The notes under the pieces: model-generated
Databases searched by the model: none
Seen by the model: only the letters and a program-made list of their open reading frames with translations
Told to the model about the DNA's origin: nothing
Assembly: GCA_016183985.1 (NCBI GenBank)
Contig: JACPDN010000011.1
Location: 186,001-250,000 of the forward strand
DNA length: 64,000 bases
Direction: 5' to 3'
From: Pseudomonadota bacterium
GTDB lineage: Bacteria; Pseudomonadota; Alphaproteobacteria; Dongiales; Dongiaceae
Part shown: positions 17,840-43,941 of the stretch, one piece after another
Position numbering within the stretch: position 1 is the first letter of the stretch
Layout of the letters: every line of letters starts with the position of its first letter
Translations under genes and position numbers: made by a program

Positions 17840-19180
17840 ATGGCTCTTCCTGCACATGTCAAATATGTCGTCATCGGCGCTGGCATCCACGGCCTTTCTT
17901 CGGCTTGGCATTTGGCTGAGAACCTTCGGAAGAGTGGTAAGGGGTCGGGCGCGGATGTGCTCATTATCGACAAGACCGCGATCGCGGCGGGTGCCTCGGG
18001 CATTGCTTGCGGGGTTGTGCGCAATAACTATTTTCAACCAGCGATGCGGAGGTTGATGGCGCATTCGGTGAGTGTCTGGGAGAGCGATGCGGAAGCCTTC
18101 TCCTATCACCCGGTCGGCTACATGCAGATCAGTCCCGAGGTGATGCATAAGGACGTGGCCTCGATCTACGCGCAGCAGAAGGAGATCGGCTACACCTCGT
18201 CCTTCATCGAGGGCGAGAAGGATTGCATGAGCTACATGCAAGGCATCTTCCACGATTGGCAGGCCAAGGGCATCACCTCGGTCCTTCATGAGAAGAAGGG
18301 CGGCTATGCCAACAACACGGCGGCGATGTATGGCCTCGCCAAGAAGGCCGAAGCCGAGGGTGTCCGCATCGTGACCGGCGTCGAGGTGAAGGGCCTGAAG
18401 CGCGACGGCAAGGGCGCTGTCACCGCGGTCGAGACCAACCAGGGCGACATCAAATGCGACTATGTCATCGCCGGCATGGGCCCGTGGGTACGCTCGGTCT
18501 GGAAGATGCTGGATCTGCCCGACGCCATCTCGATCAAGGGCAAGGACGGCAAGATGCACGAGAACGTGCCGATGTGGGTCTATTGGTCGCTGCAGGAAGG
18601 AACACTCGGCGTCGATCCGGATCTGCAGAAGACCAATGACGGCAAGATGCCGCCGGTCATCCATGTCGATACGGATGCGCCGCTCTATTCCGACGAGGAC
18701 GGATCGCTCATCACCGACAAGCTGTGGGGCATCTATTACAAGCCGGATTTCCATTTCGGCGGTGTCCAGGGCGGCGCCATGCCGTTCAAGGTGCAGACCG
18801 AGCTCAACAAGGTGCGCGTCGATCCCTATGGCCCGGAAAGCCCGGAATTCATCGTCGGCGACGATTTCGCGCATATGTGGGTATCGGCACTGGCCTTCTG
18901 CCAGAAGCGCTTCATGGGCACGATGCCGAAATACAAGAAGGAACCCTCAGGCGGCATCGGCTGCTTCACCGCCGACAGCTTCCCGGTCTTCGACAAGTTC
19001 GCCGACAACGTCTACATCATCGCCGATTCCAACCACGGCTATAAGATGATCGGCGTCGGCAAGCTGGTGGCGGACGACATCTGCGGCATGGGCGACGAAT
19101 TGCTGCGCCCGTTCCGCTTCTCGCGCTTTGCCGAAGGCAAGCTGCACCCGACGTCGAACTCGCCGTTCCCCTGGAGCTGA
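17840..19180 (+). CDS. FAD-dependent amine/amino-acid oxidoreductase (DAO, sarcosine-oxidase-beta-like)
   Basis: The 446-residue protein has the FAD Rossmann motif YVVIGAGIHGLSSAWHLAE at residues 8-26, ASGIACGVVRNNYFQP (flavin-contact region as in SoxB) and a C-terminal block with GCFTADSFPVFDKFADNVYI and DSNHGYKMIGVGKL, as in sarcosine/dimethylglycine-type oxidases. Long inserts around residues 215-290 (KDGKMHENVPMWVYW and following) are unusual for the family. GGAG lies 10 bp before ATG 17840. It is followed by an oppositely oriented FCD regulator and then the ligase/GlxBCD operon. The context suggests it oxidises an N-substituted glutamate or another secondary amine; it would be a one-subunit counterpart of the four-subunit N-methylglutamate dehydrogenase. 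That role is inferred. Confidence 0.8.
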   Translation: MALPAHVKYVVIGAGIHGLSSAWHLAENLRKSGKGSGADVLIIDKTAIAAGASGIACGVVRNNYFQPAMRRLMAHSVSVWESDAEAFSYHPVGYMQISPEVMHKDVASIYAQQKEIGYTSSFIEGEKDCMSYMQGIFHDWQAKGITSVLHEKKGGYANNTAAMYGLAKKAEAEGVRIVTGVEVKGLKRDGKGAVTAVETNQGDIKCDYVIAGMGPWVRSVWKMLDLPDAISIKGKDGKMHENVPMWVYWSLQEGTLGVDPDLQKTNDGKMPPVIHVDTDAPLYSDEDGSLITDKLWGIYYKPDFHFGGVQGGAMPFKVQTELNKVRVDPYGPESPEFIVGDDFAHMWVSALAFCQKRFMGTMPKYKKEPSGGIGCFTADSFPVFDKFADNVYIIADSNHGYKMIGVGKLVADDICGMGDELLRPFRFSRFAEGKLHPTSNSPFPWS

Positions 19181-19192
19181 CGGCACCAGTGG

Positions 19193-19216
19193 ATCCCCGG
19201 GACTTCGCCCGGGGAT
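19193..19216. terminator. GC-rich hairpin between convergent genes
   Basis: ATCCCCGGG pairs with CCCGGGGAT across a 6-base loop. It lies 12 bp after the oxidase stop and 14 bp before the 3' end of the FCD regulator on the other strand. There is no T-run. It belongs to the same GGATCCCCGGG/GGATGACG repeat type as 51065-51156. Confidence 0.5.
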
Positions 19217-19229
19217 GACGTTGTAGCGA

Positions 19230-20033
19230 TTACGCCCCTTCGATGCCCATCAACTGCCGCCGGGCGAAGTGGAGATGGCTTGTCACCATCGCCGCCGCAC
19301 CTTCGACGTCGCGGCTGGCGATGGCGCCGAGCAGCGCGCGGTGCTGGCGGTTGTATTCGGCGATACGGGCGGGGGTGAGAACCTTGTCGCGCATCGAGGC
19401 CCATTGGTCGTGGGAGCGGATCTCGTTGATGTGCTGGTAGAGCCACAGCACTAGGCGATTATGCGCAGCTTCGGCGAGCAGCAGATGAAACTGCGTGTCC
19501 CATTCCGTCCAGCTTTCCGGATCGTCGCCGGCGGCCTCCGCGCTCTCGATCGCTTCCGTCATTTTTTCCAGATCGCGATTGCTGGCGTTCAACACGGCAA
19601 GCCGCGTCATATGCGGCTCTATCCCGAGGCGCGCCTCGATGAGTTCCAGCGGCGAGGTCGAATCGGCAATGTTGTCGAGGTCTGAAACCGGCCGGTGATT
19701 GACGAAAGTGCCGCTGCCGACCCGGCGCGTCACCAACCGTTCCTGTTCCAATTGATCGAGCGCCAAACGTACCGTGGTGCGGCTGGCTTCGAACGCATCT
19801 GCGAGATGGCGTTCCGCCGGCAGCTTTTCGCCATGTTTGTAGGTGCCGGCCACGATGGCCTGACGTAGTTGGCCGGCAATCCAAACCGAGCCCCGGTTGC
19901 CATCCACTGGCAATGTACTGCCATCTGCTGCGCTGCGGGTCGCGACCGTGCCGGCCGCGTCCTTCGCTGATGTACCAATTCGGCCCAATTCTGTTCCTTT
20001 GAAAAAATTGGTTGGCAGCCTCGGGACCGCCAT
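19230..20033 (-). CDS. GntR-family regulator, FadR/FCD subgroup
   Basis: The 267-residue protein has a winged helix (about residues 50-118: GEKLPAERHLADAFEASRTT then VRLALDQLEQERLVTRRVG) and an FCD ligand domain (130-260: FHLLLAEAAHN and HRALLGAIASRD) that usually binds a small organic acid through a metal. The first about 48 residues before the winged helix are unconserved; the real start could be an internal GTG. It is divergent from the ligase/GlxBCD operon, with a 284-bp shared region that holds a perfect palindrome at 20254-20274. It is thus the likely local regulator of that operon and perhaps of the oxidase beside it. Confidence 0.85.
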   Translation of the reverse strand: MAVPRLPTNFFKGTELGRIGTSAKDAAGTVATRSAADGSTLPVDGNRGSVWIAGQLRQAIVAGTYKHGEKLPAERHLADAFEASRTTVRLALDQLEQERLVTRRVGSGTFVNHRPVSDLDNIADSTSPLELIEARLGIEPHMTRLAVLNASNRDLEKMTEAIESAEAAGDDPESWTEWDTQFHLLLAEAAHNRLVLWLYQHINEIRSHDQWASMRDKVLTPARIAEYNRQHRALLGAIASRDVEGAAAMVTSHLHFARRQLMGIEGA

Positions 20034-20253
20034 GCAAGGATCGGATTATGCGAGTGGGGTAGCCATACGGTCAATCGCCGTCAGTCACGCCCGCCCACGA
20101 GCAAATCTTGCGAGCGCGACTGCCGTATCGGAGGGAAACGCGAAAGACCAGTAAGGCCCAATTCTCCACCGCCCGCGAAGGATCGCTTCAACCGGCACAG
20201 AAAGACCGGCGAGGCGAAACGAAGAAGAGTTGTTCATGAGCAACTGACGCGGA

Positions 20254-20274
20254 ATGCCGGGACCGTCCCGGCAT
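20254..20274. promoter_or_regulatory. Perfect 21-bp palindrome in the leader of the ligase operon
   Basis: Arms ATGCCGGGAC and GTCCCGGCAT flank a single base, 43 bp before the ligase start. A second, imperfect palindrome (GTTGTTCATGAGCAAC) lies at 20230-20245. The perfect one could be an operator for the adjacent FCD regulator, or form a stable RNA hairpin in the leader. Neither is proven. No sigma-54 promoter pattern was found here. Confidence 0.5.
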
Positions 20275-20317
20275 CGCTCAACAGCGGCCAACGAGTCGCT
20301 GCTTTGGGGAGGGTGAG

Positions 20318-21784
20318 ATGACTGACCTTGAGGCACACGTCGCACAAAAAGGGCGGAAGGAACTTGTCAAACAAGTCCGCGCCCAGATCAATCAACTCGG
20401 CATCAAGTACATCTACTACCAGTTCGTTTCGGTCACCGGCCGCATCGTCGGCAAGGGTGTCCCGGCCGACCATTGGGAAAGCGTCGCGGAAAAAGGCTTT
20501 CAGCTGGTCTATGGCTCGACCGCCAATCTCTTCGTCGATCGGCACAAGAACTATATCGGCTATGGCCCCGAAGCGTCGGAGCTGGTCGGCATTCCCGACC
20601 CCGAGACGTTCGTGCAGCTGCCCTGGGACAAGCGCGTCGCGCGCGTCTTTTGCACCTGTTTCCGCAATCGCGAGGAGCGGGTCAATCCCGGCGGTCACCT
20701 GACCTCGGATTGCCGCGGCAATCTGCGCATCGTCCACGAGGAGTTCAAGAAAAAGCACAAAGGCCTGCATCTACGCCACGGCTGCGAGCCGGAGATGATG
20801 TGGCTGAAGAAGGGCGAAGATGGCCTGCCCGATGGCGGCTTCTCGAAGCCTAATTGCTATCACATCGACCAGTTCGAAAGCCTGCGCCCGGTCTTCATGA
20901 AGGTGATCGAATACGCCCAGGCCATGGGCCTCGACATGATCCAGGGCGATCATGAAGACGCGCCCGGCCAGCTCGAACTCAATTTCATGTTCGACGACTG
21001 CCTGCGCACCGCGGATCGCCTGACAACCTATCGCCAGATCTGCGCCCAGGTCGCGCGCGAGAACAATCTTATCGCCTGCTTCATGCCGAAGCCCTTCATG
21101 GGCGTCTCGGCGTCGGGCTGCCATCACAATCTGTCGCTATGGACCGGCGGCGAGGACGTGGTGAACAACCTCCATAACGACAAGCTACCCGGCAGCAAGG
21201 ACGTCTTCTCCTATCGGAAGGGTGGCAACAACACCTTCTCGCCGCTCAAGGGGCAGAAGAAGCCAGGCCCGATTGGGCTCAATTGCATCGGCGGCGTCAT
21301 CAAGCATCTGGGGGCCTTGACCGCCATCGGCTCATCGACCGTCAACTCCTATCGGCGTCTGTGGGATACGGGCTTCTGGGCACCGGTCTTTGCCGATTGG
21401 GGCTATCAGAACCGCACCTGCGCCTTGCGCATCTCGGCGCCGGGCCGTTTCGAATACCGTTCGGTCGACGCTGCGGTGAATCCCTATCTGATGGCGGCGG
21501 CCCTGCTCAAGGCCTTCGACGACGGCATCACCAATAAGCTCGATCCGGGCGAGCCGGAAGAGCGCAACATGTATGACGCCATCGCCGCCGGCAAGAAGGT
21601 GAAGAAGCTGCCGATGAGCCTGGGCGATGCGCTCGATCATCTGGAAAAGGACAGCGTCATCAATTCGGCACTGCCCGATGAGATGCTGCGCGTGTTCATG
21701 CACTACAAGCGCGACGAAGTGGAAAAGTTCATGGCCACCGTCACGCATTGGGACCGGGAGCAGTATTGGGACATCCTGCCTTAA
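20318..21784 (+). CDS. Divergent glutamine-synthetase-like ligase (candidate gamma-glutamylamide synthetase)
   Basis: The 488-residue protein keeps the glutamine synthetase catalytic core: the metal-binding glutamate pair in HGCEPEMMW near residue 155, DHEDAPGQLELNF near 212, CFMPKPFMGVSASGCHH near 255, NSYRRLWDTGFWAP near 344 and NRTCALRISAPGRFEYRSVD near 365. The N-terminus (IKYIYYQFVSVTGRIVGKGV) replaces the usual GS beta-grasp wording, and an insert near 300-325 (NNTFSPLKGQKKPGPIGLN) is unusual. It resembles neither housekeeping GlnA nor textbook GmaS/GlnT closely. Being first gene with GlxBCD-like subunits it probably joins glutamate to ammonia or an alkylamine using ATP. GGGGAGGG precedes the ATG. 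A hairpin overlaps its stop codon. Confidence 0.8.
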   Translation: MTDLEAHVAQKGRKELVKQVRAQINQLGIKYIYYQFVSVTGRIVGKGVPADHWESVAEKGFQLVYGSTANLFVDRHKNYIGYGPEASELVGIPDPETFVQLPWDKRVARVFCTCFRNREERVNPGGHLTSDCRGNLRIVHEEFKKKHKGLHLRHGCEPEMMWLKKGEDGLPDGGFSKPNCYHIDQFESLRPVFMKVIEYAQAMGLDMIQGDHEDAPGQLELNFMFDDCLRTADRLTTYRQICAQVARENNLIACFMPKPFMGVSASGCHHNLSLWTGGEDVVNNLHNDKLPGSKDVFSYRKGGNNTFSPLKGQKKPGPIGLNCIGGVIKHLGALTAIGSSTVNSYRRLWDTGFWAPVFADWGYQNRTCALRISAPGRFEYRSVDAAVNPYLMAAALLKAFDDGITNKLDPGEPEERNMYDAIAAGKKVKKLPMSLGDALDHLEKDSVINSALPDEMLRVFMHYKRDEVEKFMATVTHWDREQYWDILP

Positions 21785-21803
21785 GTGGGCAGGATGTCCC
21801 TTT
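21768..21803 (+). terminator. Strong hairpin overlapping the ligase stop codon
   Basis: GGGACATCCTGCC pairs perfectly with GGCAGGATGTCCC across a 7-base loop that contains the TAA stop; three T residues follow. It lies 36 bp before the next gene of the same operon. Such a stem inside an operon can partially terminate or stabilise the upstream message, so the ligase may be made in excess over the downstream subunits. Confidence 0.65.
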
Positions 21804-21838
21804 ACGTCTCCGCCGTTTAACCTCAAGGAGAGTTACCC

Positions 21839-22774
21839 ATGTGTGGAATCGCAGGATTGATCCACCGCGGCAAGACCGGCGACATCGGCACCGAGATGAC
21901 CGCGATGCTGCAAAGCCTGAAGCATCGCGGGCCGGATTCAACCGGCTTCGCGCTCTATGGCAGCCCCAAGGGCAATACCCTGGTCATGCGCTTCAAGGTG
22001 GCCGAGCAGGAGGATATGAAGCACGGCTTCAAGATCCATGACCAGGTGAAGGAACGGAAGGCCGAGGTCGACAAACGCCTCAAGGAACTCGGCGCCACCA
22101 TCGTGCAGGCGGAGAATGCCACCGAGTATGCCTTCCGCTACACGCTCGATTTCGGCGGCGACAAGAAGAAGCTTGCCAATTACATCGAAGACATCGAAGG
22201 GGCTGAGATCCTGTCGCTGGGCTATGGCCTGGAACTGATCAAGGATCTGGGCGACGCCGCCGATGTCTCGGGGCAATATCATCTCAAAGGATTCAAGGGC
22301 AGCCATGCCCTGGGCCATACCCGCATGGCGACGGAATCCGATGTCGACATCCGCTCCGCCCACCCTTATTGGGCCTATCCGTTCGCCGATGTCTCGGTGG
22401 TGCATAACGGCCAGCTCACCAACTACTGGACCGGGCGGCGCAATCTGGAACGTCGCGGCCATCGCTTCATGTCGAATTGCGATAGCGAGCTCATTGCCGT
22501 CTATCTCGCCGACAAGATGCAGCAGGGTGCCGAGCTCAAGGACGCGATGACCGATTCCATCGACGAACTTGACGGCGTCTTCACCTATCTGGTCGCGACC
22601 GCCGACAGCCTCGGCATGGCTAAGGATGTCATGGCCGCCAAGCCGATGGTGCTCTACGAGAGCGATGATTTCATCGGCCTGGCGTCGGAAGAAGTCGCCA
22701 TCCGCAGCGTGTTCCCGCATGAGATCGACACCTTCGACCCCTATGAGGGCGAAGTGCGGGTCTGGAAGCGGTAA
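21839..22774 (+). CDS. Class II glutamine amidotransferase subunit (GlxB/MgsA-like)
   Basis: The 311-residue Ntn-hydrolase has catalytic Cys2 exposed after Met removal (MCGIAGLIHRG), HRGPDSTGFALYG near 30, GHTRMATESDVD near 155 and VVHNGQLTNY near 180, all hallmarks of the GATase2 domain of glutamate synthase. As a free-standing subunit it matches GlxB and the A subunit of N-methylglutamate synthase. It releases ammonia from a glutamine-type amide, or recognises a gamma-glutamylamide, for the partner FMN subunit. AAGGAG stands 8 bp upstream of the ATG. The order amidotransferase - GXGXG subunit - FMN subunit is the same as in mgsABC and glxBCD; which of the two it is cannot be decided from sequence alone. 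Confidence 0.88.
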   Translation: MCGIAGLIHRGKTGDIGTEMTAMLQSLKHRGPDSTGFALYGSPKGNTLVMRFKVAEQEDMKHGFKIHDQVKERKAEVDKRLKELGATIVQAENATEYAFRYTLDFGGDKKKLANYIEDIEGAEILSLGYGLELIKDLGDAADVSGQYHLKGFKGSHALGHTRMATESDVDIRSAHPYWAYPFADVSVVHNGQLTNYWTGRRNLERRGHRFMSNCDSELIAVYLADKMQQGAELKDAMTDSIDELDGVFTYLVATADSLGMAKDVMAAKPMVLYESDDFIGLASEEVAIRSVFPHEIDTFDPYEGEVRVWKR

Positions 22775-22802
22775 TCAGGATCACTTTAGCCAGGAGCCGA
22801 AT

Positions 22803-23639
22803 ATGGCGCTTCGCACCCAGTCACACGAAATGGGGATGCATACCGAGAAACTCTCGGGCCGCACCCAGCAACGCTTCTTCTCGCCTTCGGAAGAAGAGAA
22901 TTTCACTTATCCCGGCGCCCACGACGTCGATTTCAACAAACGCGCCGAGTTCGATGCCGATAAACTGTCGACATCCGAGATCAATCTGAAACTCCGTGAC
23001 TTGATGCGCCAAGGTTACGGCACGATCGTCATGCGTAACCCCGGCGCCAAACATGCGATTGCGGTGGGCATCCTCAACAAGCTCAACCTGCAGATTGAGG
23101 GCAGCCTCGGTTATTTCGGTTGCGGCCTGATTGATGGCCCGAACATCCACATCAAGGGCCGGGTGGGCTGGTCCTGTGCCGAGAACATGCTGGCCGGGAC
23201 CATTGTCATTGAAAAGAACGCCGGCTCGACCTTCGGCGCCGCCATTCGTGGTGGCGATCTGGTCTGCAAGGGCGATGTCGGTGCGCGCGTGGGCATCGAC
23301 CAGAAAGGTGGCACGATCATTGTTGGCGGTCGCTGCGGTGCCTTCTGCGGCTTCATGATGCAACGCGGTCGCATGGTGATCTTAGGGGACGCGGGCAAGA
23401 ATCTCGGTGATTCCATGTATGACGGCACCATCTATGTCGGCGGCAAAATCGCGGGTCTGGGTGTCGACGCCGTGCCGGGCGAGATGAACGAGCTCGACTG
23501 CCAATGGATGGAGCGGAAGCTGAAGCTCTATGGCCTCAAGGCGCCAAACGGGATCAAGAACATGACCAAGATCGTCGCCGGCAAGCAACTCTGGAACTAC
23601 GACAATCTCGAGCCTTCGGAGAAGAAGCTGATCCTCTAA
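22803..23639 (+). CDS. GXGXG-domain subunit (GlxC/MgsB-like)
   Basis: The 278-residue protein has, after an approximately 60-residue N-terminal arm, a right-handed beta-helix of glycine-rich turns (GSLGYFGCGLIDG, GRVGWSCAENMLAG, GSTFGAAIRGGDLVCKGDVG, GRCGAFCGFMMQRG), like the C-terminal domain of glutamate synthase. In split enzymes this subunit is structural and links the amidotransferase and FMN subunits. It is longer than the approximately 230 residues I recall for GlxC/MgsB; the extra length is at the N-terminus (SPSEEENFTYPGAHDVDF) and C-terminus (KIVAGKQLWNYDNLEPSEKK). CAGGAG precedes ATG 22803. Co-transcribed with neighbours, gaps 28 and 49 bp. Confidence 0.88.
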   Translation: MALRTQSHEMGMHTEKLSGRTQQRFFSPSEEENFTYPGAHDVDFNKRAEFDADKLSTSEINLKLRDLMRQGYGTIVMRNPGAKHAIAVGILNKLNLQIEGSLGYFGCGLIDGPNIHIKGRVGWSCAENMLAGTIVIEKNAGSTFGAAIRGGDLVCKGDVGARVGIDQKGGTIIVGGRCGAFCGFMMQRGRMVILGDAGKNLGDSMYDGTIYVGGKIAGLGVDAVPGEMNELDCQWMERKLKLYGLKAPNGIKNMTKIVAGKQLWNYDNLEPSEKKLIL

Positions 23640-23688
23640 CCGCGCAGGATCGACGCGACTTCCTCCCATTCAGACAAGGAATAGCCAG

Positions 23689-25086
23689 ATGGCAAAAGAG
23701 AAGAAGGCTCCGGCCAGCGAATCGAAAGTTGGGGAACCCAAGGACAAGAAGCCGCTGTCGCGCGACACCTCGCGCCTGGGCAACAGCTTCATGTTCCCGC
23801 CCTCCGTCATCGACGACATCCATATCAAATCCGAGCTCGGCCGCTATCGCATGCGCGGCTTCTCGCTGTTCAAGAAGATCCCGAGCTGGGACGACCTAAC
23901 CTTCCTGCCCGGCACCCTCACCCGCTTCGTCATCGAGGGGTACCGCGAGAAGTGCGAGACCAAGACGGTCATCGGGCCGAAATGCAAACGCCCGTTGGTG
24001 CTCGACGTGCCGGTCTATATCACCGGCATGAGCTTCGGCGCGCTGTCGTTCGAGGCGAAGATCGCCCTCGCGCGCGGTGCCACCATGGCCGGCACGGCGA
24101 CCTGCTCCGGTGAAGGCGGCATGATCCCCGACGAGCGCCGCTTCAGCTCGAAATGGTTCTACCAGTGCATCCAGTCGCGCTACGGCTTCAACCCGCACCA
24201 TCTGCAGCTGGCCGATGCCTGCGAGTTCTTCATCGGCCAGGGCTGCAAGGTGGGCCTGGGTGGACATCTGATGGGCCAGAAGGTGACCGATCAGGTCGCC
24301 GAAATGCGCTCATTGCCCGCCGGCATCGACCAACGCTCGCCGGCGCGTCATCCGGATTGGCTCGGGCCGGACGATCTGGCCTTGAAGATCCAGGAGATCC
24401 GCGAAGCCACCAATTGGGAAATCCCGATCCAGCTGAAGCTGGGTGCAGCCCGCGTCTATGACGACGTGCGCATGGCGGCGAAGACCGGCCCGGACAGCAT
24501 CTATATCGACGGTATGGAAGGCGGCACCGGTGCCGGCCCGCACATCGCCACCGAAGAAACGGGCGTGCCCGGCATCGCCGCGATCCGCCAGGCGCGCAAG
24601 GCGCTCGACGATGTCGGCAAGACCGGCGAGATCAGCCTGGTCTATGCCGGTGGTATCCGTAATGGCGGCGACGTGGCGAAGGCCTTGGCACTCGGCGCCG
24701 ATGCAGTCGCGATCGGTCACTCGGCACTGATGGCGTTGAACTGCAACAAGGACATTCCCGAAGCCGACTTCCCCAAGGAGATCGGTTGCGAGGCGGGCTA
24801 TTGCTATCACTGCCATACCGGCCGCTGCCCGGTGGGTGTTGCAACCCAGGACCCGGCCTTGCGCAAGCGGTTGGATCCGGATGAAGCGGCGGAGCGGGTC
24901 TACAACTTCCTGCACTGCCTTACCATCGAGGCACAGATGATGGCGCGTGCCTGCGGCAAGACCAATGTGCACTCGCTGGAACCGGAAGATCTGGCGGCCC
25001 TCACCATGGAAGCCTCGGCGCTGGCCCAGGTGCCGCTCGCGGGTTCGCAGCACACCGTCGGCCGCCCCGACATGACCCGTTACTAA
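23689..25086 (+). CDS. FMN/iron-sulfur glutamate-synthase-like subunit (GlxD/MgsC-like)
   Basis: The 465-residue protein corresponds to the synthase domain of glutamate synthase. Visible parts are VPVYITGMSFGALSFEAKIA at the barrel start, SGEGGMIPDE, QLKLGAARVYDDV, the FMN phosphate loop IDGMEGGTGAGPHIA near 272, LVYAGGIRNGGDVAKALALG near 330 and the iron-sulfur cysteines in GYCYHCHTGRCPVGVATQ near 370. In N-methylglutamate synthase the equivalent subunit joins an amine to glutamate; in glutamate synthase it makes glutamate from 2-oxoglutarate. A charged N-terminal extension (about residues 1-35) precedes the domain. The gene is followed after 11 bp by the small 134-residue gene. Confidence 0.9.
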   Translation: MAKEKKAPASESKVGEPKDKKPLSRDTSRLGNSFMFPPSVIDDIHIKSELGRYRMRGFSLFKKIPSWDDLTFLPGTLTRFVIEGYREKCETKTVIGPKCKRPLVLDVPVYITGMSFGALSFEAKIALARGATMAGTATCSGEGGMIPDERRFSSKWFYQCIQSRYGFNPHHLQLADACEFFIGQGCKVGLGGHLMGQKVTDQVAEMRSLPAGIDQRSPARHPDWLGPDDLALKIQEIREATNWEIPIQLKLGAARVYDDVRMAAKTGPDSIYIDGMEGGTGAGPHIATEETGVPGIAAIRQARKALDDVGKTGEISLVYAGGIRNGGDVAKALALGADAVAIGHSALMALNCNKDIPEADFPKEIGCEAGYCYHCHTGRCPVGVATQDPALRKRLDPDEAAERVYNFLHCLTIEAQMMARACGKTNVHSLEPEDLAALTMEASALAQVPLAGSQHTVGRPDMTRY

Positions 25087-25097
25087 GGAGAGATCCG

Positions 25098-25502
25098 ATG
25101 GCAGACAAAAAACCGGCGGGCAAGGAAGACGTCGACAAGTATCTGAAGGGCGACGGTCTTGATTCCAGCCGTGAGAAGGAGATCGGCCAACACATCGGCT
25201 ATCGCTACGATGTCAACCTCGTCCCCGACTACAATCGCCTCACCCCGTTCCTGAAGAAGTATCTGGAGGTGATGGGCTGGGACGACCTCAATTGGCTTGA
25301 GGACGTGCATATGGGCTATGAGGAAGGCCGTGCCGCCGTGTTCGATCGCAACATCAACGGCTGGGTCACGGTGCCGACCGACCTCAAGCTGCCGGACAAT
25401 CAGCAGGATCGCGACATGATCGCGCGCGAATTGCTGATCAAGTTCCAGATGTCAAAGAAACATCCGATGGTCGATCTCAACAAGGCTTATCGGAAGTTCT
25501 GA
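25098..25502 (+). CDS. Small conserved-looking protein of unknown function, last gene of the ligase/GlxBCD operon
   Basis: The 134-residue protein is acidic and soluble, with no signal or membrane segment. Visible features are HIGYRYDVNLVPDYNRLTPF, a tryptophan-rich GWDDLNWLEDVHMGYEEG and NINGWVTVPTDLKLP. It starts 11 bp after the FMN subunit behind AAGGAGAG, so it is translated with the enzyme subunits, and a strong terminator closes the operon right after it. No family is recognised. The position suggests an accessory subunit or assembly factor of the split synthase; canonical mgsABC and glxBCD sets do not, to my knowledge, include such a protein. Confidence 0.8.
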   Translation: MADKKPAGKEDVDKYLKGDGLDSSREKEIGQHIGYRYDVNLVPDYNRLTPFLKKYLEVMGWDDLNWLEDVHMGYEEGRAAVFDRNINGWVTVPTDLKLPDNQQDRDMIARELLIKFQMSKKHPMVDLNKAYRKF

Positions 25503-25530
25503 TCCAGCATTCGACCCGCTCAAGGTCCTG

Positions 25531-25562
25531 CCCCGCTGCGTCCCCGCAGCGGGGTCTTTTTT
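25531..25562 (+). terminator. Rho-independent terminator ending the ligase/GlxBCD operon
   Basis: CCCCGCTGC pairs with GCAGCGGGG over a 5-base loop, followed by TCTTTTTT. It begins 28 bp after the stop of the 134-residue gene and separates the operon from the convergent gene at 25561. Confidence 0.88.
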
Positions 25563-26163
25563 ACTCCCGCTCCTCGAACCCGCTCTCGCCTTCGCTGCGG
25601 CCCCAATCGGGGCTGAACGAGACGATTCGGACGCCAGCCGGGATGTTCGGGTTGAACATGCGGTTGTGCCAATAGGTCGCCTGGTAGAGCGAGTCGTGTT
25701 CGGAGAGCTCCGTCACCTTGGCGAGCAGGCGGAAGCGCTGGCTGAGTTCGGCGAAGTCGAGATAGACCTTGCCATGATTGAGCAACTGGTCGACCAGCGC
25801 CGAGCCCGGGCCGAACAGGGCCGTCAGCGTGTCATCGAAATCACGGAAGCGCTGGAAATAGCCGGCGGCCATATGCTCGGTCGCCTTCTCCCAGCGCTCG
25901 ACGGGATCCTGCGTCTTCAGGACCTGGTGGCGAAAGAACGCCGTCGCGTCCTCGGTATCGGATTTGTGCAGCAGCACGACGGTGGAACCGGCAAGCTGGC
26001 TGTCATCGCGCGAGAAGATGAGGGGGCGCATGCCGGCGCTGGGCCGCCCGCCGCCTTCGCGCATCGCCATCTGTCGCAGGCGGCATTGCCAATGCAGGAA
26101 ATCCTCGCGCAGGGCCGCCGCCGCTTCGCCGATCAAGACCACTTTGTCCGAATTATTTGCCAT
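25561..26163 (-). CDS. Hypothetical cytoplasmic protein
   Basis: The 200-residue protein is not recognised. The ATG at 26163 (MANNSDKVVLIGEAAAAL) is preferred over an in-frame start 22 codons earlier because the earlier part looks like untranslated sequence. It is rich in aromatic and charged residues (HWQCRLRQMAMREGGGRPS, ERWEKATEHMAAGYFQRFRD, YQATYWHNRMFNPNIPAG) and probably all-helical. It converges on the GlxBCD operon terminator, so it is not part of that operon. Confidence 0.65.
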   Translation of the reverse strand: MANNSDKVVLIGEAAAALREDFLHWQCRLRQMAMREGGGRPSAGMRPLIFSRDDSQLAGSTVVLLHKSDTEDATAFFRHQVLKTQDPVERWEKATEHMAAGYFQRFRDFDDTLTALFGPGSALVDQLLNHGKVYLDFAELSQRFRLLAKVTELSEHDSLYQATYWHNRMFNPNIPAGVRIVSFSPDWGRSEGESGFEERE

Positions 26164-26682
26164 GCCTTTGCGACCTCCCATTCCCCATGACGATATCGCT
26201 GAGTGGCGTGCACCGCAACGTTTAGCCAACCAATTCTAGACCAGAAGCGATGAGAATGTGCTGGATTGGGCGGACACTTTGTCGCATCATGATTAGGAGA
26301 TGATTCAGCATCGATGCGTGACCGGCGAGGGGGAAATTCGCTTGGGGCTGCAGCGTTTGACGAATGAAATCTGGAATTCCTCCGGGGCGGTGTCGGCGGC
26401 CCGGACTGATGCGGTGGTGCGGTTCATGCACCCCGCCTTTGATTGCGCCGGCACCGGAAAACAGACCAATCACGACCAAAGCCGCCGAGCCTGTAGCTCC
26501 GCGGTTCGTTTCGTTGGCTTACGCGTGTTTCGCTGAACTCTACCGTCTGGTGAGACCGGACGACCGGCGGCAACGGGGGCTGCACGGTCGCTCATCAAGA
26601 CGCCAAGGCCCATTCGAATGTGGCGCAAGGACAGAAAGACCCCGGGACCACAAACTCAAAACACTAGTGAGGGGAACTGGAG
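26164..26682. other. Non-coding region upstream of the permease
   Basis: About 520 bp with no convincing gene; open frames here lack start signals and coding pattern. CTGGTGAGACCGG at 26547-26559 has the TGGT-N3-ACC form seen in FadR-type operators and could be a site for the FCD regulator at 19230, but the match is short. GGTGCGGTTCATGCACC at 26413-26429 is a small inverted repeat. The promoter of the permease gene is expected here. Confidence 0.4.
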
Positions 26683-28371
26683 ATGTCTGCGGAAACAATG
26701 TCCGGCCCTGGTAAGGGCGAACTGGTACGTGCCATCGACTGGCGCGGTGCCTTCTGGGTGGCGAGCGGCGTGCCCGCCCTCGTCCTCTTCTCGATCGGCG
26801 GCATTGCCGGCACGGTCGGCATTCCGGCCTTCGCCATCTGGGCGGTCTCGATGGTGATGGGCTTCATTCAATCCTTCACCTACGCCGAAATCGCCGGCCT
26901 CTTCCCGAACAAATCGGGCGGCGCCTCGGTCTATGGTGCGGCCGCCTGGCTGAAATACGGCAAGTTCATCGCCCCGCTTTCGGTCTGGTGCAACTGGATT
27001 GCCTGGACGCCGGTGCTCTCTCTGGGCTCGGCGATCGCGGCGGGCTATATCCTTGGCATCATGGAACCGGCTCCTGCCGCCGAAGCGATCGCTGCGAAGA
27101 TCGCCGAAGCAGCTGCAACCGGCACCGTCCTCGATGATGCGGGAGCGGCCGCCGCATTGATGCCGCTTCATAGCTGGGGCCATTCCTGGAGCCTCGGCAT
27201 CTTCAGCATCTCCTTCAACTGGACGTTTGTCATCGGTGCGGTGCTGATGCTGATCGCCTTCGCCATTCAGCATCGCGGCATTCTCGGCACCGCCAAGGTG
27301 CAGACGGTGGTCGGCCTGATCATCGTGCTGACCTTGCTGATCGTGGGTGTGGTCCCGTTCTTCAACGGCAATTTCAGCAGCGCCAACTTTTCGCCCTTTG
27401 TGCCGCTGGCAGTGCCCTACGCGCCGGAACCTGGCGCGTGGAACGTTGCCGGCTGGACATTGATCTTGGGGGGCATGTTTATCGCCGCCTGGTCGACCTA
27501 TGGCTTCGAAACGGCAATTTGCTACACCAGCGAGTTCAAGAACCCGGAGACGGACACGTTCAAGGCCATCTTCTATTCGGGCCTTCTCTGCCTTGTTCTC
27601 TTCATTCTCGTGCCGATCACTTTCCAGGGTTACCTGGGTCTGACCGGCATGCTTGATGGCGGGGTCGTCGCCGGCACCGGTGTCGCTGACGTGATGGCAA
27701 GGATGGTCGGCGGTGGCGGTGCCATCAACATCATCTTTGTCTTCCTGATGATTGCGTCGCTGATCCTCATCATCATCACCGCGATGGCAGGTTCATCGCG
27801 CACGCTCTATCAGGGCTCGGTGGATGGATGGCTGCCGAAATATCTCAGCCACGTGAACCACAATGGCGCCCCCACCGGTGCCATGTGGACGGATCTTGTC
27901 TTCAACCTTCTGCTGCTGTCGATCGCCGCAACCGACGCAACCGCCTACTACTTCATTCTGGCGGTATCCAATTGTGGCTACATCATCTTCAACTTCCTCA
28001 ACCTCAACGCCGGCTGGATCCATCGCATCGACAATGGCCACGTCAAGCGCCCGTTCAAGGCGCCAACCATCGTCCTTGCGGCCGGAGCCATTCTGGCCTT
28101 CGTCAATGCCATGTTCATGGGGGCCGGCGCCAAGGTGTGGAACCCGGTTGCCCTCTGGTACGGTCTTGGTGCCGCGGCACTGATCATTCCCGTGTTCTGG
28201 TTCCGGCACTATGTCCAGGACAAGGGCAAGTTCCCGGACCGCATGCTGGAGGATCTCGGCATCAAGGATGCCGGCCATCTGGGCGAGAAGAAGGCGGGCA
28301 TGCTGCCGTATTTGACGCTGGCAGCAGGCATCGCGGTGGTGCTGATCGCCAACCTCGTCTTCACCGGTTGA
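26683..28371 (+). CDS. APC-superfamily amino acid/amine permease
   Basis: The 562-residue inner-membrane transporter has about twelve hydrophobic segments. Near the N-terminus it has the APC fold start FWVASGVPALVLFSIGGIAG and SFTYAEIAGLFPNKSGGASVYG; later come STYGFETAICYTSEFKNPETD and SSRTLYQGSVDGWLPKYLSHV, all standard for amino acid-polyamine permeases. The loop near residues 125-160 (PAPAAEAIAAKIAEAAATG) is longer than usual. GGGGAACTGGAG precedes ATG 26683. Standing between the ligase/GlxBCD operon and Tmm it probably imports the amine or amino acid used by this locus. No TmoXWV-type ABC transporter for TMAO is present in the window. Confidence 0.88.
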   Translation: MSAETMSGPGKGELVRAIDWRGAFWVASGVPALVLFSIGGIAGTVGIPAFAIWAVSMVMGFIQSFTYAEIAGLFPNKSGGASVYGAAAWLKYGKFIAPLSVWCNWIAWTPVLSLGSAIAAGYILGIMEPAPAAEAIAAKIAEAAATGTVLDDAGAAAALMPLHSWGHSWSLGIFSISFNWTFVIGAVLMLIAFAIQHRGILGTAKVQTVVGLIIVLTLLIVGVVPFFNGNFSSANFSPFVPLAVPYAPEPGAWNVAGWTLILGGMFIAAWSTYGFETAICYTSEFKNPETDTFKAIFYSGLLCLVLFILVPITFQGYLGLTGMLDGGVVAGTGVADVMARMVGGGGAINIIFVFLMIASLILIIITAMAGSSRTLYQGSVDGWLPKYLSHVNHNGAPTGAMWTDLVFNLLLLSIAATDATAYYFILAVSNCGYIIFNFLNLNAGWIHRIDNGHVKRPFKAPTIVLAAGAILAFVNAMFMGAGAKVWNPVALWYGLGAAALIIPVFWFRHYVQDKGKFPDRMLEDLGIKDAGHLGEKKAGMLPYLTLAAGIAVVLIANLVFTG

Positions 28372-28438: not shown

Positions 28439-29269
28439 GTGATCGGCAAGACTCTTATCGACACCTTTCGCCGCGATGGTTTCGTCATCATCCGCGATTT
28501 CCTGTCCGAGGACGAGATTGCGGCAGCCCGCGCGCGGTTCGAGCCCTTGTTCCAGGGTAAATTCGAAACGGGGATTTATCCGGACGAATGGAACTGGATC
28601 GAGGGGCGCGACCCGCCCGATCGCACGCGGCAGATCTGCAATGGCTGGCGCGCGGACAAGACGGTTGCCCGCATCGTCCTCTCACAAAAGGTCGGCGAGC
28701 TCTGCGCGCGGCTGATGGGGTGGGACGGTGCCCGCATCGGCCAAGACAACGTGCTGTGGAAGCCGCCGGGCGCCAAATCGCTGGGTTTCCACCAGGACGA
28801 CAGCTATTGCCATTGGGTGGTCCCGGCGGGCTATGTCACCTGCTGGATGACGCTGGACGACACCACGGCCGCTGGCGGCACGATCGAATATGCGCGCGGC
28901 TCGCATCTGTGGCCGCTATCGAAGCCGAAGGGCAAATTCCATGCGCCCGACGATTACCGCGCCACCTTGCAGGAGGCGGCGGCCGAGGCCGGTGGCAACA
29001 TCGACATCGTGCCGATCGAGGTGATGGCGGGCGATGCGGTCATTCATCACGGCCATGTCTGGCACGGCTCCGGCACCAACACCGCCACGGTGCCGCGCCG
29101 CTCGCTCGTCTCGCATTGCATCGCGGCCGATTGCCGCTTTCACGAGACCGAGGTCAGCTACGTCTACAGCCGTTATCGCCGGCAAGATGACCTCGCCATG
29201 GATGAGAGTTTCTTCCCGATCCTGTGGCGCCAGGACGGCTATCGCTCAGCTTGGCTGAATGGACTGTAA
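28439..29269 (+). CDS. PhyH-family Fe(II)/2-oxoglutarate dioxygenase
   Basis: The 276-residue protein begins at GTG 28439 (AAGG upstream) with DTFRRDGFVIIRDFLSEDE, the usual start of phytanoyl-CoA dioxygenase-like proteins. Iron ligands are visible in FHQDDSYCHW (His-x-Asp, near residue 118) and in IHHGHVWHGSGTN near 200; an arginine follows in VPRRSLVSH for the 2-oxoglutarate carboxylate. Such enzymes hydroxylate small molecules and can demethylate amines. Placed 67 bp after the permease and 187 bp before tmm, it may oxidise a methylated amine or related osmolyte. Substrate unknown; co-transcription with the permease is likely. Confidence 0.82.
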   Translation: MIGKTLIDTFRRDGFVIIRDFLSEDEIAAARARFEPLFQGKFETGIYPDEWNWIEGRDPPDRTRQICNGWRADKTVARIVLSQKVGELCARLMGWDGARIGQDNVLWKPPGAKSLGFHQDDSYCHWVVPAGYVTCWMTLDDTTAAGGTIEYARGSHLWPLSKPKGKFHAPDDYRATLQEAAAEAGGNIDIVPIEVMAGDAVIHHGHVWHGSGTNTATVPRRSLVSHCIAADCRFHETEVSYVYSRYRRQDDLAMDESFFPILWRQDGYRSAWLNGL

Positions 29270-29456
29270 TTGGTTCGAATATGTCTGCCTTTGGTAACGC
29301 CGTCATTGAAAGCCCTCTCCCCCATAGGTTATTGTTTTCCCCATGTGGGGCGCATTTGTCGCGTGCCGAAGCGGTGCAACCAATTCTCCGCCCGGCCGCT
29401 GATCGGGGTTTGAGCACGCGTAGATCTTCGTAAAAAATCAGGTGCAGGGAGCCGAT

Positions 29457-30800
29457 ATGAAAAAGCGAGTTGCCGTCATCGGTGCCGGTCCGTCGGGAAC
29501 CGCCGTTCTCCGGGCTTTTCAATCCGCCGCCGCCAAAGGCGCCGAGATCCCCGAGGTCGTCTGCTTCGAGAAGCAGGAAGATTGGGGGGGCCTGTGGAAC
29601 TACACCTGGCGCACCGGGCTCGATGAATATGGCGAGCCGGTCCATGGCAGCATGTATCGCTATCTGTGGTCCAACGGGCCGAAGGAATGCCTGGAATTCG
29701 CCGACTACACCTTCGAGGAACATTTCGGCCGGCCCATCGCCTCCTATCCGCCGCGCGCGGTGCTGTGGGATTACATCAAGGGCCGCGTCGAGAAGGCCGG
29801 TGTGAAAAATTGGGTGCGTTTCCGCACCCCGGTACGCCATGTCACCTATGATGAGAAGAGCGGCAAATTCACGGTCGAGGCCCATGACCTTGTCAACGAC
29901 AAGGTGAGCCGCGAGGAATTCGATCACGTCATCGTCGCCTCCGGCCATTTCTCCGTGCCCAACGTGCCGGAGTTTCCGGGCTTCCGCACCTTCAACGGCC
30001 GCGTCCTCCACAGCCACGACTTCCGCGACGCCGTCGAGTTCAAGGGCAAGGATATCCTCATCATCGGTCGCTCCTATTCCGCCGAAGATGTGGGCTCGCA
30101 ATGCTATAAATACGGCGCCAAATCGATCACTTCTTCCTATCGCTCGAAGCCGATGGGCTTCAAATGGCCGGCCAATTGGGAGGAGAGACCGCTGCTGCAG
30201 CAGGTCGAGAACAAGACGGCCTATTTCAAGGACGGCAGCACGAAGGAAGTGGATGCCATCATCCTCTGCACCGGTTATCTGCACCACTTCCCGTTCCTCG
30301 ACGACAAATTGCGTCTGAAGACGGCCAACCGCATGTGGCCGACCGGCCTCTATCGCGGCGTGGTGTGGGAGGACAACCCGAAGCTCCACTTCATCGGCAT
30401 GCAGGACCAGTTCTATACCTTCAACATGTTTGACGCCCAGGCTTGGTACGCGCGCGACGTCGTGCTGGGCCGCCAGAAACTACCCAGTCGTGCGGAGATG
30501 GAGAAGCACAGCGCCGCCTGGCGTGCACGTGAAGAGACGCTGGAAGACGCCGAGCAGATGATCTGGTTCCAGGGCGATTACGTGAAGGAGCTGATCGAGC
30601 TCACCGATTATCCGAGCTTCGATATCGAGACGGTCAACAAGACCTTCATGGAATGGGAACACCACAAGCAGGAAGACATCATGGGCTTCCGCAACAACTC
30701 CTACCGCTCGATCATGACCGGCAACATGTCGCCCAAGCACCATACGCCGTGGCTGCAGGCGATGGACGATTCCCTCGAGAGCTATCTCAAAGCGAAGTGA
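29457..30800 (+). CDS. tmm: Trimethylamine monooxygenase (flavin-containing, Tmm)
   Basis: Oxidises trimethylamine to trimethylamine N-oxide with NADPH and O2; cytoplasmic. The 447-residue protein has FAD motif [15 protein letters not shown], the FMO signature [11 protein letters not shown] near residue 179, an NADPH-site motif [20 protein letters not shown] near 201 and [12 protein letters not shown] near 271. The stretches [20 protein letters not shown] and [20 protein letters not shown] agree closely, from memory, with the characterised bacterial Tmm/bFMO of Methylophaga, Methylocella and roseobacters. GGGAG precedes ATG 29457. Tdm, the next enzyme of the pathway, is encoded 1 kb away on the opposite strand. 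Substrate range also covers other tertiary amines and dimethyl sulfide in this family. Confidence 0.95.
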
Positions 30801-34246: not shown

Positions 34247-34388
34247 CTGACCTCGGCCTGCAGGGGACTTTGACGCCACCATTCTGGTGCCAATGATAGA
34301 CCGCTGCCGGACCACGCCTCAAGCCGGCAATCGACCGACAGCAGCGAAATTCCGCAACCAAAGCCAGACCGATTCATTTGAAGAAGAT

Positions 34389-38298: not shown

Positions 38299-39882
38299 TC
38301 AGGCCGCTTTCACCTCATCCTCAACCGGGGCGAGGCGGATGAGATAGTCGAAGGCCGAGAGCGATGCCTTGGCGCCCTCGCCCATGGCAATGACGATCTG
38401 CTTGTAGGGCGCCGTCGTCGCATCGCCGGCCGCAAACACGCCAGGCTGCGAGGTGGCACCGCGATGATCGACCTCGATCTCGCCGCGATTGGTGAGAGCG
38501 ATGGTCTCTTTCAGGAATTCCGTGTTCGGCACCAGGCCGATCTGCACGAAGATGCCTTCGAGTTCGACGCGGTGCAGCGCGTCGGTATCGCGGTTCTTGT
38601 AGGACAGCCCCGTGACCTTCGAGCCATCGCCATGCACTTCGGTGGTGAGGGCCGAGGTGATGACCTTCACATTGGGGAGCGAGTTCAATTTCCGCTGCAG
38701 CACCGCATCGGCGCGCAGCTTGCCGTCAAACTCGATGAGCGTCACCTGGGCGACGAGGCCGGCCAAATCGATCGCCGCCTCGACGCCGGAATTGCCGCCG
38801 CCGATGACCGCCACGCGCTTGCCCTTGAACAGCGGGCCGTCGCAATGGGGGCAATAGGCGACACCCTTGTTGCGATACTCGGCCTCACCCGGCACGTTCA
38901 TCTGCCGCCAGCGGGCGCCGGTCGCCAGAATGATGCTGCGAGCCTTCAGCACGGCACCGTTGGCGAGATGCACTTCGGCCAAGCCGCCAGGCACCTTCGC
39001 CGGCACGAGCTTTTCGGCGCGCTGGACGTTCATGATGTCGACGTCATAGGCCTTCACATGCTCCTCCAGCGCCACGGCGAGCTTGGGCCCTTCCGTGTGC
39101 GAGACAGAGATGAAGTTCTCGATCGCCATCGTGTCCAGCACCTGGCCGCCAAAACGCTCGGCGACGATTCCGGTGCGAATGCCTTTGCGCGCGGCATAGA
39201 TCGCCGCCGCGGCGCCGGCCGGGCCACCGCCCACCACCAGCACCTCGAACGGCGCCATATGCTTCAGCTTCTCGGCCGCGCGGGCCTCGGCACCTGTGTC
39301 GATCTTGGCGAGGATCTGCTCCAGATCCATGCGGCCCTGGCCGAACGGCTGGCCGTTGAGAAAGATCGACGGCACCGCCATCACCTGACGCGCATCCACT
39401 TCCGGCTGGAAGTTGGCACCGTCGATGGCGACGTGGCGGATCTTGGGGTTGAGCACGCTCATGAGATTGAGCGCCTGCACCACGTCGGGGCAGTTCTGGC
39501 AGCTCTGCGAGAAATAGGTCTCGAAATGGAAATCGCCGTCCAGCGCCTGGATCTGCTGGATCACCTCCTGCGCGGCCTTGGAGGGATAACCACCGACCTG
39601 CAGCAGGGCCAAGACCAGCGAATTGAATTCATGGCCCATGGGCAGGCCGGCAAAGCGTACGCCAACAGCGGTGCCCGTGCGATGGATCGCAAACGAGGGC
39701 TTACGTGCATCATCGTCGCGGCGCTCATAAGTGATGAGGGCGGAGAGCGTCGCGATCTCGGTCAGCAGGTCTTCCATCTCGCGCGCGGTATCGCTGGCAT
39801 CGAGCGAGGCAACAAGCTCGATCGGCTGCGTGATGCGCTCCAGATAGGCCATCAGCTGTTCTTTGAGATTGGCGTCCAACAT
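38299..39882 (-). CDS. ahpF: Alkyl hydroperoxide reductase subunit F
   Basis: Flavoprotein disulfide reductase that uses NAD(P)H to re-reduce AhpC. The 527-residue protein has tandem thioredoxin-like folds at the N-terminus with the CxxC dithiol SCQNCPD near residue 130, FAD motif [20 protein letters not shown] near 216, catalytic YCPHCDG near 346, NADH motif [17 protein letters not shown] near 360 and the C-terminal [19 protein letters not shown]. Length is normal for AhpF. GGAG precedes ATG 39882. ahpC lies 96 bp upstream on the same strand, so both are probably one transcript. Confidence 0.95.
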
Positions 39883-42370: not shown

Positions 42371-42653
42371 GCTGAAAAATCCGCATCCAGGTGAAATCCT
42401 GCTGGAGGAGTTTCTGCGTCCGATGCAGGTCTCGCAGAATGCGCTTGGCCGGGCAATTGGCGTCTCGCCCCGCCGCATCAACGAGATCGTGCTCGGCAAG
42501 CGTGCGATCACGGCAGATACCGATTTGCGTCTCGCCAGGGCGTTCAGCATCTCGGAGGGATTTTTCCTTAATCTTCAGACTGACTTTGATCTGATGGAAC
42601 GCCGCCGCGCAATCGGCGACACGCTCAAAGCCATCAAACCGATTGCTGCATAG
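42345..42653 (+). CDS. higA: HigA-type antitoxin (XRE)
   Basis: The 102-residue protein contains NPHPGEILLEEFLRPMQVSQ and NALGRAIGVSPRRINEIVLG followed by KRAITADTDLRLARAF, the standard HigA helix-turn-helix. It neutralises HigB and represses the operon. AGGAGG lies 9 bp before ATG 42345, which is inside the toxin gene. Its 3' end overlaps the convergent glcF gene by 20 bp, so the module sits tightly against housekeeping genes. Confidence 0.93.
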   Translation: MSKSSTITKLKNPHPGEILLEEFLRPMQVSQNALGRAIGVSPRRINEIVLGKRAITADTDLRLARAFSISEGFFLNLQTDFDLMERRRAIGDTLKAIKPIAA

Positions 42654-43935: not shown

Positions 43936-43941
43936 GGCGCG

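Follow-up and report, generated by a model that had tools for sequence, protein, structure and literature searches.

Dimethylamine (DMA) arises whenever Tdm, the demethylase of trimethylamine N-oxide (TMAO), acts on its substrate. In Methylocella silvestris, Ruegeria pomeroyi and Paracoccus aminophilus, the place after Tdm and before the enzymes of the N-methylglutamate (NMG) pathway is occupied by the DMA monooxygenase DmmDABC. The NMG pathway (GmaS, MgsABC, MgdABCD) combines an ATP-dependent amine-glutamate ligase, a three-piece glutamate-synthase-like enzyme and an FAD-dependent N-methyl amino acid oxidoreductase, a logic of ligase and three-domain synthase that is also that of glutamine synthetase (GS) and glutamate synthase. 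Here we analyze a 64,000-nucleotide stretch, called the window below, of contig JACPDN010000011.1 (assembly GCA_016183985.1, positions 186,001 to 250,000) from an alphaproteobacterium of the Dongiaceae. Positions 17840 to 25502 of the window hold seven genes, which we name OX (oxidase), REG (regulator), LIG (ligase), GAT, GXG and FMN (synthase subunits) and SML (small protein), and Tdm is encoded next door. This cluster probably has a glutamate-mediated role in DMA use, in place of DMA monooxygenase.

The cluster has all three NMG enzyme types, including a ligase with GmaS-type pocket residues. It differs from the NMG pathway in that its ligase belongs to a separate clade below the family cut-off, its oxidase has one subunit, SML is extra, and FMN keeps an Fe-S motif that the genome's own MgsC has lost. 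With glutamate synthase it shares the GATase Cys1, GXGXG, FMN and Fe-S motifs; however, LIG has an amine pocket, the synthase is split into three genes and the cluster lacks an NADPH subunit. With DmmDABC it has no proteins in common, only the proposed place, and its chemistry would be glutamate-mediated rather than that of an oxygenase, bypassing free methylamine (MMA).

Proposed route

The observed gene content, protein families, conservation, linkage and distribution suggest DMA as the substrate, two intermediates and the following order of steps. Trimethylamine (TMA) would be converted to TMAO and then, by Tdm, to DMA, which LIG would join to glutamate at the expense of ATP, giving gamma-glutamyl-N,N-dimethylamide. 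GAT, GXG and FMN, with SML perhaps as an added subunit or factor, would free DMA at the amidotransferase site and add it reductively to 2-oxoglutarate, yielding N,N-dimethylglutamate. OX would take off one methyl group as formaldehyde to leave N-methylglutamate, from which the ordinary NMG dehydrogenase MgdABCD would produce glutamate and a second C1 unit. Modelled on established NMG chemistry, this scheme is the most economical reading; the full sequence via N,N-dimethylglutamate is put forward tentatively, with somewhat under an even chance of being right. In the open literature (subscription papers and preprints lay outside the scope) we found no earlier proposal of a DMA route through dimethylglutamate or gamma-glutamyldimethylamide.

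A ligase clade with a predicted GmaS-type amine pocket

Against the type III (GmaS/GlnT) family TIGR03105, LIG scores 313 bits, below the cut-off of 469.6, whereas the GmaS of the same genome scores 669 bits; the two proteins are 29% identical. A maximum-likelihood tree of 67 rows, with no named PuuA or IpuC references among them, groups LIG with its relatives in a single clade (support 100/100, stem 2.36 changes per column). GmaS forms another (100/100) and joins the type-III-like rows (91/80), not LIG. The tree leaves the position of the window genome's long-branch GS paralogues uncertain.

A crystallographic study of RhGmaS assigns the methylamine pocket to Y147, Q175, D177, E179, E186, N188 and K30' (PMC7948447). 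The LIG equivalents, numbered from the solved chain, are Y181, Q209, D211, E213, E220, N222 and K46. The signature Q-x-D-x-E-x6-E-x-N occurs in 69/69 LIG rows and 15/15 GmaS rows and in 0/15 rows of other GS types; GKG[VI]P, at the K30 site, is present in all 69 LIG rows and CYHIDQ, at the Y147 site, in 65 of them (in these motif counts some genomes enter twice, since the sets of loci overlap). By these residues, the LIG pocket is of the GmaS amine type and not of the ammonia-GS type, and we rejected LIG as an ammonia-dependent glutamine synthetase on the equivalents of D177 and N188. One GS feature may remain: in an ungapped alignment, an Asp occupies the position of GS Asp50', and 19 of the first 20 LIG rows listed retain it. 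According to the same study, RhGmaS has a Km of 27 μM for MMA vs 16 mM for DMA (PMC7948447). Because RhGmaS takes DMA so poorly, a cell living on DMA by glutamate chemistry would need a separate ligase, and we propose LIG as a candidate gamma-glutamyldimethylamide synthetase.

Two groups of relatives accompany the LIG of the cluster. A sister subfamily, 53–67% identical to LIG, is found in five loci of the class sample described below (L227–L231; the tree rows labeled GSx of L227, L228, L229 and L231 are sister-type ligases present twice) and on plasmids of Paracoccus sp. TOH and Ruegeria sp. SCSIO 43209 (L270, L271). A PhyH gene lies downstream in four of the five class loci. On the plasmids, the ligase gene lies immediately 3' of a second glutamine-synthetase gene, with a P450 or aldehyde dehydrogenase gene and type 1 glutamine amidotransferases near. 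This subfamily apparently serves a different pathway of gamma-glutamylated amines. The cyanobacterial LIG proteins (L070, L079, L091, L092, L096, L098, L101, L105, L110, L117) are likewise sister to the LIG of the cluster; some of their loci have Tmm, Tdm, TmoP or PhyH near, the other cluster genes are absent from the fetched flanks, and in the nine of these ten genomes that were searched for FMN, no match exceeded 57%. Since these relatives occur without the cluster, the LIG family is not tied to one pathway.

Conservation of the cluster and its distribution against Tdm and DmmDABC

Named genomes hold at least 574 LIG relatives. We kept the best 80, and among the matches listed the nearest named genome is that of Dongia mobilis (LIG 94%). 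The block from LIG to SML recurs in Rhodospirillales, Pelagibacteraceae (SAR11), Arenicellales, Thioglobus (Gammaproteobacteria thus included), Gemmatimonadota and Latescibacterota. The class sample comprised 385 Alphaproteobacteria, with a LIG match defined as E ≤ 1e-140, and 39 genomes had one. Gene neighborhoods were counted in 36 stretches, the window and 35 others fetched from these 39 genomes; G279 and G385, which have only sister-type LIG and no cluster, were left out, leaving 37 genomes with the ligase type of the cluster, and so was one of these 37, G207 (64% complete, stretch not fetched, best FMN match only 50%).

LIG, GAT, GXG and FMN stand together in all 36 stretches, REG is present in 28 and OX, together with the synthase genes, in 27; SML, which the preliminary description of this DNA had set apart as an added small protein, is conserved in 32. 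This co-occurrence is far beyond chance. A gene of TMA or TMAO breakdown (Tdm, Tmm or the permease gene TmoP) is linked in 13/36 stretches, an NMG-pathway gene in 11 and one or the other in 22; the last two counts become 9 and 21 once two of the mgdA-like matches counted (those of G208, G350 and G378 among them) are removed, the SoxB-like one of G208 and the unclassed one of G378 (43%). An ammonium transporter gene (Amt) adjoins the cluster in 12 of the 36, and in loci L200 and L216 it lies between the cluster and mgdABCD.

Full-length Tdm (at least 1000 bits) occurs in 34 of the 385 genomes, 29 of them above the curated cut-off. LIG is found in 26 of these 34 genomes, compared with 13 of the remaining 351 (Fisher 6e-24, uncorrected for kinship). 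DmmDABC was traced through PF11927 (DUF3445), the family of its heme subunit, which in Rhizobium is encoded next to a reductase, an aminomethyltransferase and a protein annotated as DmmA. Of the 47 genomes that have Tdm, LIG or both, nine matched PF11927; the window's genome had no match. Full dmmDABC sets are present in G174, G266, G296 and G323, all of which have Tdm and lack LIG. The 29 genomes with Tdm above the cut-off thus divide into 24 with LIG only, 4 with dmm only, 1 with neither and none with both (Fisher 2e-4, relatedness uncorrected); among these the LIG type spans 11 families and the dmm type 4. For all 34 full-length Tdm genomes, the division is 26, 4 and 4 (neither). Among the best 80 named LIG genomes, 50 were searched for PF11927: three matched, all cyanobacteria, and none of the 41 non-cyanobacterial genomes did.

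The arrangement is most regular in SAR11. In nine named Pelagibacteraceae loci the order is Tdm, cluster, Amt, methylamine genes: LIG-GAT-GXG-FMN-SML is present in 9/9, Tdm-OX upstream in 8/9, Amt downstream in 8/9 and an mgs or gmaS gene after Amt in 7/9. In the family of genome G221, which we take to be Pelagibacteraceae from the gene order it has in common with the named SAR11 loci, LIG occurs in 42/147 genomes and in 24/54 of good quality. The cluster occupies a recognized gap in this group. One report credits SAR11 with Tmm, Tdm and GmaS, finds dmmDABC lacking and speaks of a metabolic bottleneck (PMC5520151); a second describes growth of strain HTCC1062 with TMAO as the only source of nitrogen and supposes an unknown isoenzyme of DmmDABC (PMC8918994). 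A third lists SAR11_1303, an aminomethyltransferase, next to SAR11_1304, a "monomeric sarcosine oxidase", and refers to demethylation of unknown substrates (PMC3160333). From the gene order of the loci analyzed, these two genes would be Tdm and OX.

Synthase subunits, small protein and oxidase

GAT, GXG and FMN follow one another as GATase, GXGXG and Glu_synthase genes, the order of a three-gene MgsABC-type synthase, and are 35%, 35% and 53% identical to MgsA, MgsB and MgsC of the same genome. GAT begins with MCGI in 59/62 rows, so the amidotransferase Cys is retained. The motif C-x2-C-x4-C is present in 87/87 rows of FMN orthologues vs 9/20 MgsC-like rows. The genome's own MgsC (L023:12174-13499) has lost all the Fe-S cysteines (GAYDDWHEGKDPAG), and the paralogue in the cluster retains them. 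One might speculate from these cysteines that the synthase receives electrons from outside, perhaps from OX.

SML has 27 relatives at 65–81% identity to the window protein, a conservation about equal to that of the enzymes. Its AlphaFold model is of moderate confidence (pLDDT 75.9); it gave no Foldseek match at E ≤ 0.001 and one VIA row at Z 2.2, and no solved fold was found. A profile match to TLAP2 reached E 0.009. The three-strand core is slightly WW-domain-like, a likeness that appeared only among weak Foldseek ranks and is not claimed.

OX is modelled at pLDDT 84.8, and its best solved match is L-proline dehydrogenase (1y56_B, Z 37.4), followed by SoxB (Z 35) and by dimethylglycine dehydrogenase (DMGDH) and monomeric sarcosine oxidase (MSOX), both at Z 32. 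The model thus folds like the oxidases of N-methyl amino acids (Z 32–37); the identity to SoxB, MSOX and DMGDH is about 20%, however, and Pfam DAO covers residues 9–225 only. OX is 22% identical to the MgdA of its own genome over 219 amino acids. RNNY is present in 37/37 OX rows and NHGYK in 35/37; we take the Arg of RNNY to bind the substrate carboxylate and HGxK to be the active-site motif of the SoxB, MSOX and DMGDH amine oxidases. In the OX consensus no clear equivalent was seen by eye of the MSOX Cys that is presumably the site of covalent flavin attachment. We propose OX as a putative N,N-dimethylglutamate demethylase.

Relation to the NMG pathway and alternative readings

The genome of the window also carries mgdABCD, mgsABC and gmaS together on another contig (C10), where the Pfam content is DAO, SoxD, a GCV_T alpha subunit, a second GCV_T, GATase, GXGXG and Glu_synthase. 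MMA is therefore already served. The preliminary description, which did not have this separate locus, had seen in the cluster the three chemical roles of the NMG pathway and had offered two readings, a substrate amine other than methylamine, left unnamed, or a compact variant of the pathway. As to the roles, the ligase, split synthase and oxidase are indeed of those types, but the canonical pathway exists separately beside them. The compact variant was rejected because the canonical genes coexist in the same genome, and GmaS above its cut-off is found in 29 of the 39 LIG genomes of the class sample. The other reading is supported as likely, with the evidence pointing to DMA, and so are a divergent ligase subfamily and a one-subunit oxidase, the cluster having a single DAO-family gene in place of the four-subunit MgdABCD. 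The ligase phylogeny and neighborhood survey suggested with it placed LIG outside the GmaS and type-III-like rows and found the oxidase and GlxBCD-like genes co-occurring as reported above.

The cluster might nevertheless be a second pathway for MMA, in which LIG would make gamma-glutamylmethylamide, GAT, GXG and FMN would form N-methylglutamate and OX would oxidize it without MgdABCD. The likeness of the three chemical roles and the GmaS pocket residues kept in LIG favor this, and two genomes (G063 and G282) have the cluster and mgdABCD, as divergent neighbors around the ammonium transporter gene, without a GmaS above the cut-off. The same gene set would be expected, however, if the cluster supplied N-methylglutamate without free methylamine, and the missing GmaS of these two and of G187 (one genus; 81–86% complete) is possibly due to incomplete assembly. 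Against a second MMA pathway stand the canonical set in the window's own genome, a cut-off GmaS in 21 of the 26 genomes with Tdm and LIG (missing in G063, G187, G282, G086 and G092) and the separation of the LIG clade from GmaS; moreover, it would provide no outlet for the DMA that Tdm produces and would not account for the absence of dmm. We regard it as unlikely. In G004 (from the genus of the window's bacterium; mgdA 83%), G023, G063 and G282 the cluster is flanked by mgdABC(D) genes that resemble MgdC more than they resemble SoxA of the same genome, which speaks for a route through N-methylglutamate; G210 has an mgdA piece (70%). The "mgd" genes near the cluster in L198, L211 and L221 are nearer SoxA than MgdC and were dropped from this argument.

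In another reading, also rather improbable, LIG would gamma-glutamylate some other amine, such as an N-alkyl amino acid, ethylamine, isopropylamine or ethanolamine, and the TMA genes would lie nearby by chance or for reasons of regulation. The sister-type ligases, whose neighbors are a second GS, a P450 or PhyH protein and hydrolases of amidotransferase type, agree with such a function, as do the 13 of 39 LIG genomes that lack full-length Tdm; the strong co-occurrence of LIG with Tdm, the linkage of TMA and NMG genes to the cluster and the placement of the SAR11 cluster between Tdm and the MMA genes speak against it. Still less credible is a role for the PhyH protein as N-demethylase of LIG-made gamma-glutamyldimethylamide, feeding gamma-glutamylmethylamide to the canonical pathway, with OX and the GlxBCD-like set serving some other purpose. 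In its favor, the window has a PhyH gene between those for TmoP and Tmm, and PhyH is the neighbor of some cyanobacterial and sister-type LIG genes that lack the other cluster genes. Against it, PhyH (at least 60% identity) adjoins the cluster in only 4/36 stretches, all from a single genus, and none was found at the named SAR11 loci.

Several observations weigh against the glutamate-mediated DMA route that we favor. As just mentioned, a third of the LIG genomes have no full-length Tdm, and LIG occurs without the cluster in cyanobacteria and, beside other oxygenases, in the sister subfamily. OX is absent from 9/36 stretches, some of them ended by contig ends; among five such genomes checked, G369 has its OX at another locus, beside Amt and gmaS, and in G199, G292, G376 and G378 none was found in the extra stretches. 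The mutual exclusion of LIG and dmm rests on four dmm genomes, and Tdm-positive G273 has neither LIG nor dmm. Finally, weak or partnerless PF11927 matches occur in G046, G350, G273, G038, G279 and three cyanobacteria. No dmmA or reductase gene lies beside these matches in loci read about 1.5 kb to each side, so they were not counted as Dmm. This applies to G038 (172.6 bits), to G279 (260 bits, 29% to the Rhizobium subunit), to the three cyanobacteria (243–278 bits, 26–28%), to second matches in G174 and G323 and to the matches of G046, G350 and G273 (51–59 bits), which show no similarity to any Rhizobium Dmm protein. As counter-evidence to a DMA function, the cyanobacterial and G279 matches are weakened by their partnerless loci.

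These HODM-like PF11927 proteins without Dmm partners comprise weak C-terminal matches in the SAR11-like loci L142, L143 and L144 (G273, G350 and G046) and stronger ones in L137, L141 and L147–L149 (G279, G038 and the three cyanobacteria).

Taken as a whole, the cluster may represent an undescribed, complete and widespread pathway that carries DMA on glutamate and demethylates it in the form of N,N-dimethylglutamate with no free methylamine, OX possibly feeding electrons to the Fe-S/FMN synthase and SML linking the two. It would then supply the DMA step that has been missing for SAR11, SUP05-type Thioglobus, Arenicellales and numerous other bacteria of soil and sea, a possibility that we rate a little below evens. 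The cluster replaces dmm in the Tdm genomes that we surveyed, and if the proposal is true, dmm-based estimates of DMA-utilizing bacteria are too low, LIG and FMN can serve as new markers, and both an amine-glutamate chemistry and a small subunit, each of them new, are open to study.

Organization of the locus

Gene calls in the window are open reading frames, with families from Pfam and from NCBIfam at the NCBI curated cut-offs (Table 1). The oxidase, FCD regulator, GS-like ligase, GATase, GXGXG and FMN subunits, 134-residue protein, terminator and permease of the preliminary description were all recovered in place, with their families confirmed; beyond it, the permease proves to be a TMAO permease, with Tmm and Tdm next. 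Since the gaps from LIG through GAT, GXG and FMN to SML are only 54, 22, 49 and 11 bases, these five genes are read as one operon. The hairpin that would close it lies 28 bases past the SML stop codon and has the most pairs of any in the scan, which overall gave no excess over shuffles (8 vs 8.2).

Table 1. Genes and other features of the cluster and its surroundings, in window coordinates
Feature	Position	Strand	Description	Family or score
OX	17840..19180	+	FAD amine oxidase/dehydrogenase (predicted SoxB/MSOX/DMGDH fold), one subunit, 446 aa	Pfam DAO
REG	19230..20033	-	GntR/FCD regulator, divergent from ligase operon	Pfam GntR + FCD
LIG	20318..21784	+	Glutamine-synthetase-like amine ligase, 488 aa	Gln-synt_C
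GAT	21839..22774	+	Class II amidotransferase-like subunit, MgsA counterpart	Pfam GATase_6/7
GXG	22797..23639	+	MgsB counterpart	Pfam GXGXG
FMN	23689..25086	+	Glutamate-synthase-like FMN/Fe-S subunit, MgsC counterpart	Pfam Glu_synthase, 305.8 bits
SML	25098..25502	+	134 aa, last operon gene	No Pfam or NCBIfam match
Hairpin	25530..25555	+	Intrinsic-terminator-like, closing operon	11 pairs, 9 G-C, T run
TmoP	26683..28371	+	TMAO permease	NF053774, 830.8 bits (cut-off 690)
PhyH	28439..29269	+	PhyH-family Fe/2-oxoglutarate oxygenase, between TmoP and Tmm	Pfam PhyH
Tmm	29442..30800	+	Trimethylamine monooxygenase	NF058570, 857.4 bits (cut-off 675)
Tdm	31859..34315	-	TMAO demethylase, makes DMA	NF053776, 1173.5 bits (cut-off 1100)

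In R. pomeroyi, the GntR-type regulator TmoR is reported to respond to DMA (PMC13390433), and by analogy REG could do likewise. Between the operon terminator and the TMAO permease gene lies an open frame of 222 amino acids on the minus strand (25561-26229) with no Pfam match. Farther along, the window holds an AhpF gene above its curated cut-off (38299-39882) and, on the minus strand, a glycolate-oxidase-like glcDEF set (42634-46572), of which only GlcF is above its cut-off.

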